Assembly (NCBI RefSeq): GCF_006442975.2
Contig: NZ_CP083954.1
Span: 5,401,501 to 5,465,500 of the forward strand
Length of the DNA stretch: 64,000 nt
Direction: 5' to 3'
From: Mesorhizobium sp. B2-1-1
GTDB taxonomy: Bacteria > Pseudomonadota > Alphaproteobacteria > Rhizobiales > Rhizobiaceae
The notes under the pieces were generated by a model. That model made no database searches. It was not told the DNA's origin and saw only the letters and a program-made list of their open reading frames with translations. Made by a program: the position numbers and the translations under genes. Positions 31,792-54,783 of this stretch are shown one piece after another; the first letter of the stretch is position 1, and each line of letters opens with the position of its first letter.

Positions 31792-32129
31792 ACGTTTGCC
31801 TGAGCGGGATCGGCGGAACGTAGTCCCCTCGAGTGCTCTGTCGTTCGGCGATGCGTCCTTACGGGCTTATGGATTTTAATTCAAGGCTTTTGCAAAGCAA
31901 AGGTCACTTGCCCACATGGAAGCGGATCTGCCGACAAGAAAAAGGCCGGCGGGAGGAGGTGCCGGCCTTTTCCTGTTACGAGCCAGCGGGAGGAGGTGCT
32001 GGCTGGTCACCCCGGAGGCGGAGGGAGGAGGTTCCGCCGACCGGGTATTCGTTGATGGCTGCCATCATACACACGATCATTTCGAAGAAAATGCGACCTT
32101 TTGTTACATCTTCTGATCATGCGCAAATA
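31792..32129. other. Intergenic region between tRNA-His and the phasin gene
   Basis: No gene seen. It contains a terminator at 31939-31972 and three imperfect copies of GGGAGGAGGT (at about 31951, 31989 and 32024), two of them within CCGGC-type contexts. The triplet repeats may be duplicated debris of the terminator stem. Confidence 0.5.
31939..31972 (-). terminator. Intrinsic terminator of the phasin transcript
   Basis: AAAAAGGCCGGC-(10 nt)-GCCGGCCTTTT is a strong inverted repeat. On the minus strand the stem is followed by TTTTTCTTG, as expected for a Rho-independent terminator downstream of the phasin gene. The A-tract on the other side means it could work in both directions. Confidence 0.75.
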
Positions 32130-40989: not shown

Positions 40990-41061
40990 GCATGATCTCT
41001 GGACAAACGGAACCGTTTGTCCGCGAAAACCGGTTCCCACTTTTCGGGATCATGCTCAGCC
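40990..41061. repeat. 72-bp extragenic repeat, copy 1
   Basis: Starts GCATGATCTCTGGACAAACG and ends GGGATCATGCTCAGCC. It contains the inverted repeat GGACAAACGG-AA-CCGTTTGTCC and the outer GCATGATC/GATCATGC arms, so the whole unit is close to palindromic. Identical to copy 2 except for one base (GGTTCCC against GGTGCCC). Confidence 0.95.
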
Positions 41062-41068
41062 TATTCGG

Positions 41069-41140
41069 GCATGATCTCTGGACAAACGGAACCGTTTGTC
41101 CGCGAAAACCGGTGCCCACTTTTCGGGATCATGCTCAGCC
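41069..41140. repeat. 72-bp extragenic repeat, copy 2
   Basis: Second copy, 7 bp after the first and in the same orientation. Its right end overlaps the end of the potI-like gene and supplies that gene's TGA stop codon (41135-41137, minus strand). Confidence 0.95.
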
Positions 41141-51494: not shown

Positions 51495-52931
51495 ATGATG
51501 CCGCCTGCAAAAAAGGAAGTCCGTCCGTCGAGCCGCGGAGGGCGCGCCCGCACGCCTGCCTTCGTGAAAAACCTGCGTGGTGTGAAGAACTGGAAGGAAG
51601 TCAGCGAATGGCTGGAATGGCGCGGCATCGAAGACATCGAATGCATTACACCTGACCAGGCCGGCGTTGCCCGCGGCAAGATGATGCCGTCAAAGAAATT
51701 CACCTCCAACACCTCGCTGGCGCTGCCTTCAGCCGTATTCATGACCACCATCTCAGGCGGCTATCCCGAAGACGGCAACGGCTTCCATTATCCGGAGGAC
51801 GACGGCGACCTCAAGCTCATGCCGGACCTGTCGACGCTGACGGTGGTGCCTTGGGAGGAAGACCCGACGGCGGCCGTCATCTGCGACCTCGTCCACCAGG
51901 ACGGCCGTTCGGTGGAATTCACGCCGCGCAACGTGTTGAAGCGTGTTCTGGCCGCCTATGACAGGCGCGGGCTGAAACCGGTGGTGGCGCCCGAGATCGA
52001 ATTCTATCTGGTGCGCAAAAACCCGGATCCGGATTACCCGCTGACGCCGCCCGTCGGCCGTTCGGGGCGGGCGATCGGCGGCGGCGCCGGTTATTCGATC
52101 GCCGGCGTCAACGAGTTCGACGAGCTGATCGACGACATCTATCATTTTTCCGAAAGCCAGGGCCTGGAGATCGACACGCTCATCCATGAAGAGGGCGCCG
52201 GCCAGCTCGAGATCAATTTGCGCCACGGCGATCCCGTCGAACTCGCCGACCAGGTGTTCATGTTCAAGCGCACTATTCGCGAGGCGGCGCTGAAACACGA
52301 AATCTACGCCACCTTCATGGCCAAGCCGATCCAGGGTCAGCCGGGCTCCGCCATGCACATCCATCAGTCGATCATCGACAAGAAGACGGGCAAGAACATC
52401 TTCTCGGCCGAGGACGGCTCGGAAACCGAGGACTTCTTCCATTTCATCGGGGGCATGCAGAAGCATGTGCCGAACGCGCTGGTCATGTTTGCGCCCTACG
52501 TCAATTCCTACCGCCGGCTGACGCAGTCCGCCTCGGCTCCGGTCAACAACAAATGGGGCTACGATAATCGCACAACGGCATTCCGCGTGCCGCGCTCGGA
52601 TCCGGCGGCGCGCCGCGTCGAAAACCGCATCCCCTCCTCCGACGCCAATCCCTATCTGGCAATGGCCGCTTCGCTCGCCTGCGGGCTGATCGGCATCACC
52701 AACAAGATCAAGGCCGAACCTCCGGTGCTGACCACCGCCAATGCCGACGAGATCGACCTGCCGCGCAGCCTGCTCGAAGCCGTCGACCTGTTCGAGGGCG
52801 ACGAGGAACTCTGCGCGCTTTTGGGCAAGTCCTTCGCCGCGACCTATGCGGCGATCAAGCGGGCGGAATTCGAGACGTTCATGGAAGTGATCAGTCCTTG
52901 GGAGAGGGAGTATTTGTTGCTCAATGTGTAG
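51495..52931 (+). CDS. puuA: Glutamine synthetase family protein, probable gamma-glutamylputrescine synthetase
   Basis: 478 residues. The glutamine synthetase catalytic domain is complete: APEIEFYLV (metal Glu), EEGAGQLEINLRHGDPVELADQ, GSAMHIHQSI (His), YVNSYRRL and NRTTAFRVP.. ENRIPSSDANPYLAMAA. The short N-terminal domain and these details match the PuuA-like group, which joins glutamate to putrescine and similar amines. A PuuB-like oxidase follows, separated only by the S23 repeat cassette, and a putrescine importer lies upstream, which supports that role. The TAG stop coincides with the start of the GGGGAGTA repeat array. Confidence 0.9.
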   Translation: MMPPAKKEVRPSSRGGRARTPAFVKNLRGVKNWKEVSEWLEWRGIEDIECITPDQAGVARGKMMPSKKFTSNTSLALPSAVFMTTISGGYPEDGNGFHYPEDDGDLKLMPDLSTLTVVPWEEDPTAAVICDLVHQDGRSVEFTPRNVLKRVLAAYDRRGLKPVVAPEIEFYLVRKNPDPDYPLTPPVGRSGRAIGGGAGYSIAGVNEFDELIDDIYHFSESQGLEIDTLIHEEGAGQLEINLRHGDPVELADQVFMFKRTIREAALKHEIYATFMAKPIQGQPGSAMHIHQSIIDKKTGKNIFSAEDGSETEDFFHFIGGMQKHVPNALVMFAPYVNSYRRLTQSASAPVNNKWGYDNRTTAFRVPRSDPAARRVENRIPSSDANPYLAMAASLACGLIGITNKIKAEPPVLTTANADEIDLPRSLLEAVDLFEGDEELCALLGKSFAATYAAIKRAEFETFMEVISPWEREYLLLNV

Positions 52932-52986
52932 GGGAGTAGGGGAGTAGGGGAGTAGGGGAGTAGGGGAGTAGGGGAGTAGGGGAGTA
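52931..52986 (+). repeat. GGGGAGTA tandem array, 7 full copies (left flank of S23 gene)
   Basis: Seven exact head-to-tail copies of GGGGAGTA, with a partial GTA before and GGGA after. The first unit overlaps the last base of the puuA TAG stop. The last unit lies 8 bp before the S23 gene start and supplies its ribosome-binding sequence. It is the exact reverse complement of the array at 53370-53481. Confidence 0.98.
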
Positions 52987-52993
52987 GGGATGA

Positions 52994-53362
52994 ATGGCCG
53001 AAAAGACAGGCTCTTACAAGGACTTGCTTGTTTGGCAGCAGGCAATGGATCTTGCTGTGGCAGTTTACAGCTCCACAAAATCATGGCCCAAGGAGGAACT
53101 TTATGGATTGACCAGCCAAGTCCGCCGTTCCGCAAGCTCGGTGCCGGCAAATATAGCTGAGGGGTATGGTAGAGAAATTCGAGGATCCTACCAACAGTTT
53201 CTTCGCATCGCCCAGGGATCATTGAAGGAGCTGGAAACTCAACTTCTGATCGCTGAGCGGACTGGCATCGCCTCGCAGGCGGCGACAGCGTCGTTGTTGG
53301 CCAGCACCGAAAGTGTGGGGAAGCTCTTGCGGCTTTTGATCCGCAAATTGTCCCCGGAATAG
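52994..53362 (+). CDS. Four-helix-bundle protein of the S23/IVP (23S rRNA intervening sequence) family
   Basis: 122 residues, the normal family length. The signature is complete: YKDLLVWQQAMDLAVAVYSSTKSWPKEELYGLTSQVRRSASSVPANIAEGYGREIRGSYQQFLRIAQGSLKELETQLLIAERTGI. Related proteins are encoded in intervening sequences of bacterial 23S rRNA and include the Avd accessory protein of diversity-generating retroelements, which forms a basic pentamer binding nucleic acid. Base use differs from its neighbours: more A/T, with codons such as ATA, GGT, TAT and TTT, so it is probably acquired. It sits exactly between puuA- and puuB-like genes, flanked by 8-bp repeat arrays in inverted orientation. Confidence 0.93.
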   Translation: MAEKTGSYKDLLVWQQAMDLAVAVYSSTKSWPKEELYGLTSQVRRSASSVPANIAEGYGREIRGSYQQFLRIAQGSLKELETQLLIAERTGIASQAATASLLASTESVGKLLRLLIRKLSPE

Positions 53363-53369
53363 CCTACCC

Positions 53370-53481
53370 TACTCCCCTACTCCCCTACTCCCCTACTCCC
53401 CTACTCCCCTACTCCCCTACTCCCCTACTCCCCTACTCCCCTACTCCCCTACTCCCCTACTCCCCTACTCCCCTACTCCCC
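53370..53481 (+). repeat. TACTCCCC tandem array, 14 full copies (right flank of S23 gene)
   Basis: Fourteen exact copies of TACTCCCC, preceded by a variant CTACCC at 53364-53369 and followed by a partial TACTCC that ends at the puuB GTG start. It is the reverse complement of the left array and twice its length. The two arrays can pair in RNA or in single-stranded DNA over at least 56 bp. Confidence 0.98.
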
Positions 53482-53487
53482 TACTCC

Positions 53488-54783
53488 GTGAGCATCATGC
53501 CCTACCAATCCCCGATCTCCCCCGGCCGTTCCTGGTACGAGGACACGGCCGGCCCGCGACCCGAGTATCCGGCGCTGGACGGTGACCGGAGCTGCGACGT
53601 CGTTATCGTTGGGGGCGGTTTCACCGGCTTGTCGGCGGCGGTGCATCTGGCCAAGGCGGGCACCAATGTGGTTTTGATCGAGGCGTATCGCTTCGGAGAC
53701 GGCGCTTCCGGGCGCAATGGCGGCCAGCTCGGCACCGGGCAGCGCGCCTGGGCCGAGGAATTGGAGGCCGAGTACGGGTTTTCCCGCGCCAAGGCACTGT
53801 TCGACCTCGCCGAGGAGGCGAAGGCGCATCTGCTCGAATTCGCCGCCGCCAACCAGATCGATATCGACTACATGCCGGGCCAGCTCTCGGTTGCGCACAA
53901 GCCGCGCTATGTCGACGACTACAAGGCGCATGCCGAGATCATGGCCAGCCGCTTCTCCTATCCGCACATTTCGTTCATGGACGCGACGGAAACTGCGCAG
54001 CGGCTGGGCTCGACAGCCTATTTCGGCGGGACGCGCGACACCGGCACCGGCCATATCCATCCGATGAAACTGGTGATCGGCACGGCGCGGGCGGCGGCAC
54101 AGGCCGGCGCACGATTGTTCGAAGCGACGCCGTCGACCGGCATTGTTTCGAGCGGCGGCACGGTGAAGGTTTCGACAGCCAGGGGGACGATCACAGCGCA
54201 GAAATGCCTGATCGCGGTCAATGCCCATGGCGGCACGCTCGAACCGGTGAGTGCCGCGCACATCATGCCGATCGGCTCGTTCATCGGCGCGACCGTGCCG
54301 CTTGGAGCGGATTCGAACGTGCTGCCGGGCGGCGAGGCCGTCGATGATTCCCGCTTCGTCGTGCGCTACTTCCGCAAGTCGAGGGATGGCCGGCTGCTGT
54401 TCGGCGGACGCGAGGTCTACGGCGTCAACGACCCCAAGGACATCCATATCCATATCCGCCGCCAGATCGCGGAACTCTATCCCGCACTGAGGGACGTCGA
54501 AATCACGCATGGCTGGGGCGGCTATGTCGGCATCACGGTGCCGAGAAAGCCGTTCGTGCGAGAAGTGATGCCGAATGTGATCTCGGCCGGCGGCTATTCC
54601 GGCCACGGCGTCATGCTGTCGAACTTCTTCGGCAAGCTCTATGCCGAAACGGTAGCCGGCAACCGCGACCGGCTAAAGCTGATCGAGGATTTGAAGATTC
54701 CGCCGTTCCCCGGTGGCCGGCGCTTGCGCGCGCCGCTGCTTTTCCTGGCGCTCAACTGGTTCGCGTTGCGCGACAGGATTTAA
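53488..54783 (+). CDS. puuB: FAD-dependent oxidoreductase, probable gamma-glutamylputrescine oxidase
   Basis: 431 residues from GTG 53488; ATG 53497 is the alternative. A DAO-type FAD domain begins CDVVIVGGGFTGLSAAVHLAKAGTNVVLIEA (about 31-61), then GASGRNGGQLGTGQR, and ends with GWGGYVGITVPRKPFV and SAGGYSGHGVMLSNFFGKLYAE. This layout matches PuuB/OrdL-type oxidases, which oxidise gamma-glutamylputrescine to the aldehyde. The start codon abuts the TACTCCCC array, so its own ribosome-binding site seems to have been displaced by the repeats; translation may depend on unusual signals or on coupling. Confidence 0.9.
   Translation: MSIMPYQSPISPGRSWYEDTAGPRPEYPALDGDRSCDVVIVGGGFTGLSAAVHLAKAGTNVVLIEAYRFGDGASGRNGGQLGTGQRAWAEELEAEYGFSRAKALFDLAEEAKAHLLEFAAANQIDIDYMPGQLSVAHKPRYVDDYKAHAEIMASRFSYPHISFMDATETAQRLGSTAYFGGTRDTGTGHIHPMKLVIGTARAAAQAGARLFEATPSTGIVSSGGTVKVSTARGTITAQKCLIAVNAHGGTLEPVSAAHIMPIGSFIGATVPLGADSNVLPGGEAVDDSRFVVRYFRKSRDGRLLFGGREVYGVNDPKDIHIHIRRQIAELYPALRDVEITHGWGGYVGITVPRKPFVREVMPNVISAGGYSGHGVMLSNFFGKLYAETVAGNRDRLKLIEDLKIPPFPGGRRLRAPLLFLALNWFALRDRI

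Follow-up and report, generated by a model that had tools for sequence, protein, structure and literature searches.

An S23 gene between inverted arrays of seven- or eight-nucleotide repeats at bacterial gene junctions: a possible two-part system resembling REPIN-RAYT

Intervening sequences (IVSs) of 23S rRNA genes (e.g., that of Coxiella) carry an S23 gene within pairing terminal inverted repeats, and they occur sporadically and are taken to be horizontally acquired (PMC4990558). The S23 proteins are described as having no known function (PMC4990558). In the REPIN-RAYT system, a low-copy, largely vertically inherited gene, the REP-associated tyrosine transposase (RAYT), is accompanied by dispersed hairpin elements without the gene, the REPINs, which are commoner in genomes with a RAYT gene (PMC8049555). 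Heptamers of Xanthomonas (GGGAATC) and Nostoc (GGGGA(C/T)T) form arrays in gene junctions, where the G-rich strand follows stop codons; Xanthomonas was reported to have 70 to 75 inverted pairs and Nostoc few, and a functional role is still to be found according to the authors (PMC4692102). TAACTGA arrays occur in Beggiatoaceae, Cyanobacteria and Bacteroidetes, translational regulation being only suggested for the Beggiatoaceae repeats (PMC4679880), and the HOOF-print octamers of Brucella serve as typing markers (PMC7589603). Here we describe a locus of Mesorhizobium sp. B2-1-1, in a stretch of 64,000 nucleotides (NZ_CP083954.1, positions 5,401,501 to 5,465,500; hereafter the window), at which an S23 gene lies between two inverted octamer arrays and the whole is placed between a puuA- and a puuB-like gene, not in an rRNA gene.

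This locus is one example of an element that occupies, as a module, the space from one gene's stop codon to the start of the following gene, and that recurs in many phyla. The sequence facts and the association of S23 with arrays are firm. Judging from them, we propose that the S23 gene and its inverted arrays of 7- or 8-nt units would form a widespread two-part system resembling REPIN-RAYT, a reading that we hold to be nearly an even bet. The features of the locus are as follows.

51495..52931, + strand: puuA-like gene (glutamine synthetase fold; PF00120, 1e-103), the upstream neighbor, with its stop codon TAG inside the left array
52928..52989, + strand: left arm, array of the octamer GGGGAGTA in 7 exact copies, with its G-rich strand being the S23 coding strand
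52994..53362, + strand: intact S23 (23S-IVP, four-helix-bundle) gene, 122 aa (PF05635, 1.7e-36)
53367..53487, + strand: right arm, inverted array of 14 exact copies of TACTCCCC, with 62 bp pairing with the left arm in the predicted RNA
53488..54783, + strand: puuB-like FAD-dependent oxidoreductase gene (PF01266, 9e-64), the downstream neighbor, starting at GTG 53488 or ATG 53497

The initial annotation of the window had described 7 copies of the one octamer, an S23 gene, and 14 inverted copies of the other, spanning the interval from the puuA-like stop to the puuB-like start. Exact counts, the Pfam match and the coordinates all agree with this description; the start of the left array falls in the stop codon (TAG, 52929-52931), and the end of the right array abuts GTG 53488 directly, with an in-frame ATG at 53497. 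Tandem Repeats Finder returned 7.8 units (52928-52989) and 15.1 units (53367-53487), both with 100% matches. The window contains 19 occurrences of GGGGAGTAGGGGAGTA, both strands counted, compared with a mean of 0.00 over 100 shuffles, and a scan of the window for inverted pairs of 7/8-nt arrays found only this pair, and 0 pairs in five shuffles. The predicted RNA forms one unbroken outer helix of 62 bp (z -10.0 vs. shuffles) with S23 in the loop, where a stem of at least 56 bp had been claimed, and the A/T-richer base use ascribed to the gene was also found (53.7% GC in the S23 open reading frame [ORF] vs. 62.2% in the window, within the lowest 1.2% of equal slices). PF05635 is the sole Pfam match of the gene at E 0.001; its product exceeds the cut-offs of both NF008911 and TIGR02436 ("four helix bundle protein") and has a PDB relative in 2gsc_A, XCC0516 (1.2e-20). 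The puuA-like gene matches the gamma-glutamylputrescine synthetase model NF045547 at 4.6e-66, yet stays under the cut-off of that model, while 142 of 146 genomes of the genus contain a match to the puuB-like gene with an E value of 1e-100 or lower. The same genome carries a second, broken S23 copy at an apparent tolB-pal junction (L004 3250-3720; C1:1198404-1198651), flanked by inverted octamer arrays of the GAAATGAA/GAATTGAG type as judged by eye, and three further GGGGAGTAGGGGAGTA sites, each with an inverted partner by eye and a loop too short for S23.

Within the genus, taken to be Mesorhizobium because named loci of that genus share its junctions, S23 was present in 118 of the 146 genomes, with 1 to 6 matches per genome. 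The genus set comprised 111 loci, i.e., the window's own, 30 given by the genus search, and 80 more from among the S23 matches listed, from which two were dropped, S23 not being found in the piece; the 80 added loci lean to strong matches, because they were picked in order from the matches listed, passing over some that lay at contig ends or contained inner stops. The 109 loci sit at exactly five junctions, judged by both flanks (gene names other than puu are our reading of the ORFs):

puuA/puuB: 34 of the 109 loci
acyl-CoA dehydrogenase-like/mmsB-like: 29 of the 109 loci
nuoC/nuoD: 24 of the 109 loci
ATP-grasp-like/alpha-E-like: 16 of the 109 loci
tolB/pal: 6 of the 109 loci

The longest exact match between the two arms had a median of 18 nt, compared with 8 nt in 600 control pairs, and exceeded the control 99% point in 75 of the 109 loci. 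In local alignments, the arms of all but one of the usable loci (105/106) scored above the 95% point of other-gene controls, and the best repeat lag was 7, 8 or 14 in all of them (106/106), compared with 15 of 212 controls. A chance origin of the arrays is excluded by the shuffle counts, the genus junction survey, the arm-match controls, and the window scan.

The arrays and the gene behave as one module. In the S23 tree, the junction sites are nearly clades, with five changes of site label where four is the minimum and 61 are expected if the labels are shuffled. The elements at nuoC-nuoD fall into a clade A, in which 13 of 15 elements could be typed in both arms and every one of these is of the AGTAGTG type, and a clade B with GTGAATG-type arms (7/7), while one nuoC-nuoD element (L094) has an S23 gene that nests in the ATP-grasp clade (support 98/94) and GCGAATA arms, as in that clade. 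The unit sequence thus goes with the S23 lineage and not with the site. Left and right units agreed in 89 of the 99 elements typed in both arms (of 109; near-variants were merged by hand), compared with a mean of 68 and a maximum of 80 when right arms were swapped within sites in 2000 rounds; the unit GGGCAGTA was typed in both arms of 13 puuA-puuB S23 elements. The median dN/dS of S23 was 0.05-0.08 in six clades, and 0.05 in the clade of the window copy, so that S23 is under strong purifying selection.

S23 was also found in 20 of 199 genomes of an order sample and in 52 of 299 genomes of a phylum sample, both of which include members of the genus. A third set came from searching named genomes with an alignment of 24 sequences and comprises the best 80 of at least 582 relatives, the titles of which cover Alpha-, Beta- and Gammaproteobacteria, Acidobacteria, Cyanobacteria, Planctomycetes, Bacteroidetes, Fibrobacteres, Chloroflexi, Clostridia, and one archaeal bin. 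Four of these named loci are from Mesorhizobium (L197, L206, L212, and L223) and share the junctions of the survey loci; they are omitted where n = 76 and included in counts of 80. One non-genus locus (L190) is absent from the control, strand, wobble, and left-unit counts and is included in the swapped-arm test of 129 loci. In that test, with flanks measured from the ends of the S23 domain, 63 of the 76 named loci, 22 of the 33 order/phylum loci, and 11 of the 20 further phylum loci had arms scoring above the 95% point of swapped arms (96/129 in total), and 56 of the 129 scored above the 99% point. The best lag was 7, 8 or 14 in 71 of 76 named loci, compared with 23 of 160 controls, and 62 of 80 named loci passed the 95% point of other-gene controls. 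The suggestion that S23 genes elsewhere be examined for short inverted tandem arrays was therefore answered with values far above controls, in the genus and outside it.

The left units are diverse, 47 distinct ones being counted in a mostly non-genus set. The idea that stop codons are selected for in the unit, taken from TAG and TGA in the genus, was rejected, as 24 of the 47 left units contain a stop, compared with 43% of letter-shuffled units. The neighbors outside the genus were identified by Pfam hits, since open-frame length and codon-position score are unreliable for neighbor orientation in GC-rich genomes; the latter called 54 of 109 genus loci same-strand, though both neighbors read as being on the S23 strand. 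Among 14 loci tried, 11 had ORFs of the S23 strand on both sides and 10 were scanned, on that strand only, giving a Pfam hit upstream in 8 of 10 and downstream in 9 of 10, which marks them as genuine genes of that strand, including the LeuA/isopropylmalate dehydrogenase family, KARI/LeuA, guanylate kinase/cytidylyltransferase, and PglZ/BrxL. The last of these is from Thiohalocapsa halophila (L241 4001-4339), where the S23 cassette lies between PglZ- and BrxL-domain ORFs, as in a BREX operon. Two loci (L285 and L288) have S23 between apparent accB and accC ends, frames as read, with GGGATTC or GGGAATC units (arm scores 43 and 47, respectively; the swapped 99% point for L288 was 37). At L194, the right array seems to lie in the reading frame of the N-terminal end of a RuvC-like ORF, the ATG of which overlaps the S23 stop codon, and the repeat may be translated there. 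More distant S23 genes lie upstream of apparent hsdM-like genes (L277, L279, L283, and L286); three of these four do not reach the 95% point in the arm test, and a long AGCGAGT array lies to the left of S23 at L279. In Brucella pseudintermedia (L199), an S23 cassette with AAGGGAGT units occupies the same puuA-puuB-like site by eye.

The nuoC-nuoD junction harbors 49 S23 elements, 24 of which belong to the genus set (others include L156-L163, L200, L203, and L208-L210), and cassettes of several families carry different units there. Vertical descent across families was rejected, because S23 identity was unrelated to NuoD identity (Spearman -0.05, with 716 of 999 permutations as high, in 31 of the 49 elements and with NuoD as a weak clock); it is thus possible that this junction is a recurrent target for S23 cassettes.

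Empty sites, which the initial annotation had recommended looking for, do exist. Thirty related puuA-puuB junctions, sorted by length and by eye, comprised 13 with an S23-sized cassette, one with an S23 remnant, 13 with a short inverted array, one empty, and two running off the contig. The empty one (L138) has 9 nt between the genes, stop included. At nuoC/nuoD of the window's own genome, stop overlaps start with no element, and among 16 parsed of 18 such junctions, gaps of <=11 nt were found for six of the other 15, several others being misparsed. The 13 short arrays have other units and no room for S23, and the remnant (L132), which has an internal deletion, shows how S23-less forms can arise. 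Arrays in relatives without S23 had been named beforehand as evidence against a cassette, and they are literally there, but with other units; together with the L132 remnant, they speak for a two-part system rather than against the cassette. Such arrays are frequent elsewhere in the genus: (TAGCGAA)3 occurred in 66 and (TAGGCAG)3 in 93 of the 146 genomes, while control patterns occurred in 0. In 24 inspected array loci, a script found inverted units downstream in 11/12 and 11/12 (one only at 548 nt), with an intact S23 in 0/24 and one S23 remnant (L334) at an mmsB-like site. Some S23-less arrays lie apparently between convergent genes.

Dispersed arrays tend to have the same unit as the arms of the S23 gene in their genome. 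Away from S23, GCGAATA arrays were found in 23 of 30 genomes with a GCGAATA-armed S23 and in 40 of 116 others (p 5e-5). They showed no link with GGCAGTA-armed S23 (13/29 vs. 50/117 others), nor with AGTAGTG-armed S23. Reciprocally, GGCAGTA arrays were found in 23 of 29 genomes with a GGCAGTA-armed S23, the S23 loci of all 29 having been examined, and in 65 of 117 others (p 0.02), and showed no significant association with other S23 clades; GGCAGTA- and AGTAGTG-armed S23 are known only from examined loci, so that some of the "others" may have them. The arms of S23 itself were subtracted for 16 loci and for one by hand, 13 of the 30 GCGAATA genomes being uncorrected; as examined loci have 0 to 2 such matches, a worst-case correction drops two genomes, with counts of 1 and 2, and leaves 21/30 (p 7e-4). 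In independent pairs on a puuB tree of 117 genomes, own-unit contrasts ran 8.3 to 1.0 (median p 0.039) and 5.8 to 0.5 (p 0.070), compared with 5.8 to 3.0 (p 0.51) and 2.9 to 1.3 (p 0.69) for cross-unit pairs. That dispersed arrays and same-unit S23 belong together is suggestive, not conclusive.

How could such a two-part system work? The S23 protein might recognize the folded arms as hairpins of single-stranded DNA or RNA, and this recognition would help the arrays to be copied, homogenized or kept; arrays without S23 would be non-autonomous partners, as REPINs are to RAYT. To our knowledge, S23 has no catalytic site, and no match to reverse transcriptase (PF00078) was found in this genome, the profile matching 3 of 14 genomes as a control; for these reasons, host replication or repair enzymes are invoked for the copying or upkeep. 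That S23 acts on the repeats at all stands at about even odds. A search of two S23 proteins with PADLOC gave no defense hit.

Several observations weigh against this proposal. Units change freely between elements, and recognition of a fixed sequence is therefore hard to picture. When relatedness is allowed for with a single-gene tree, the own-unit association is only modest, and the raw tests numbered eight. S23-less genomes also retain arrays (GCGAATA in 4 and GGCAGTA in 10 of the 20 genomes listed among 28 such genomes). No arm match was seen at the 95% point in 33 of the 129 non-genus loci, and just 38 of the 80 named loci lie above the 99% point of other-gene controls, the flanks of one control gene matching with a score of 93, higher than nearly all S23 arms; this control is perhaps a strong inverted array without S23. 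Within the genus, only 20 of 106 loci beat the 95% point of swapped arms, swapped arms also matching because elements share units. S23 moves rarely there (five site changes, the least possible being four), and L094, the clearest case of a move, sits on a branch flagged as long. Finally, inspection of the empty puu site by eye revealed no target-site duplication, although arrays obscure the ends.

The initial annotation took the locus for an IVS-like mobile cassette that had moved from rRNA to mRNA; the idea of a cassette is supported, whereas an rRNA origin is not, as nothing seen points to rRNA and Rfam gave 0 RNA hits in the 16 named S23 loci submitted, out of 80 (its two hits in the window, a tRNA and ar14, are both away from the S23 locus). 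Even so, an IVS-like cassette acting as RNA, in which pairing of the arms in the mRNA gives a stem that is cut by RNase III, the flanking messages separate, and S23 is translated from the loop, would account for the long predicted stem and for the layout, which is that of S23 ORFs in 23S rRNA IVSs, where the 28-bp stem of Coxiella was cut by RNase III in vitro (PMC4990558). It also suits the Pfam-positive neighbors on the S23 strand and the left arm, which is richer in G than in C on the S23 coding strand in 107/107, 30/33, and 74/80 loci of three sets. Selection for a sense-strand RNA stem would predict an excess of G-U pairs over the opposite transitions, and none was found in strictly aligned arms: wobble-type to non-wobble transitions were 49 to 83 (105 elements), 12 to 21 (22 elements), and 46 to 55 (60 elements), although mutation bias could hide a weak effect; an earlier loose alignment running past the arrays was also without excess. 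The Rfam result and the existence of S23-less arrays, some of them apparently between convergent genes, likewise speak against it, and we consider this explanation unlikely. The missing G-U excess makes us lean towards one arm being copied into the other at the level of DNA, for instance by template switching in a hairpin; the missing reverse transcriptase match speaks against current retro-copying.

DNA-level copying would also suit another explanation, in which the arrays are self-growing DNA hairpins kept uniform by slippage and template switching, possibly useful as transcript-end hairpins, and S23 is a captured passenger with no part in their spread. The S23-less inverted arrays are indeed frequent (13/30 puuA-puuB sites, and nearly all of the 24 inspected loci, none with an intact S23), but the recurrence of S23 between arrays in so many lineages, its dN/dS, and the link of dispersed arrays to the resident S23 unit would be left unexplained, and we regard a passenger role as unlikely. 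A DNA transposon mobilized by a transposase in trans, with S23 as an accessory protein, would explain the clean insertion at gene junctions with known empty alleles and the movement of L094 between sites together with its arms; the cassette has no transposase gene (no search for a trans factor was made) and no target-site duplication was seen, and this possibility seems to us very improbable. Two other features of the window lie outside the S23 locus: a 79-bp unit repeated 1.9 times with 98% matches (40990-41140), and the alphaproteobacterial small RNA ar14 beside the tRNA (31938-32049).

Returning to the two-part system, a broader form of it would make S23 the missing partner of the scattered 7/8-nt tandem repeats of bacteria, each lineage maintaining and spreading inverted arrays of its own unit at gene junctions without transposases or reverse transcriptases; the 23S rRNA IVSs would be a special case, and the repeats of Xanthomonas, Nostoc, and Brucella gene-less products. 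We put this forward only tentatively, as distinctly less probable than not. If true, it would add a class of repetitive elements in which a small structural protein takes the place of a transposase. Because the S23 fold is solved, the link to the arrays makes the function of S23 and the role of the repeats testable together, at elements that adjoin housekeeping genes in several phyla.

As described above, the 23S rRNA IVSs resemble the S23 elements in carrying the gene within pairing inverted repeats and in their sporadic, presumably horizontal occurrence (PMC4990558). In contrast, the elements described here lie at protein-gene junctions, their arms are tandem 7/8-nt arrays with changing units, and a predicted stem stands where RNase III excision is known for IVSs; the Coxiella ORF is reported to be undergoing reductive evolution (PMC4990558), whereas S23 here is under strong purifying selection. 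With REPIN-RAYT, the S23 elements share a low-copy, largely vertical gene conserved within the genus, as judged from the near-site clades, the dN/dS and the 1 to 6 matches per genome, and dispersed gene-less elements with the flanking repeat of the gene, which are commoner with a same-unit S23, an effect that is modest after relatedness. S23 is not a REP-associated tyrosine transposase, and its repeats are variable-unit tandem arrays, not fixed palindromes. The four-helix bundle of S23 is related to Avd, the accessory protein of diversity-generating retroelements (PMC10053308), systems from which this genome differs in having no reverse transcriptase match. Of the features of miniature inverted-repeat transposable elements and insertion sequences, the cassette lacks the transposase, and a target-site duplication was, as noted, not visible by eye. 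Tandem 7/8-nt units in a gene junction, as in the simple repeat class (STRR, HOOF-print), are present: L288 has GGGAATC-type units, as in Xanthomonas, upstream of its S23 gene, with matching arms, and the Brucella octamer AGGGCAGT (PMC7589603) is by its letters a rotation of GGGCAGTA, the puuA-puuB arm unit of the genus. A text search found neither "s23" nor "four helix" in PMC4692102 or PMC4679880, and in the open-licence literature searched we found no paper linking S23 to such arrays, though one may be in print elsewhere. The 23S rRNA IVSs and REPIN-RAYT are nearest in design, yet each fails a tested defining feature (rRNA location and the tyrosine transposase, respectively), and S23 with inverted short-unit arrays at gene junctions and with gene-less partners looks, within the searchable literature, like a repetitive element not described before.

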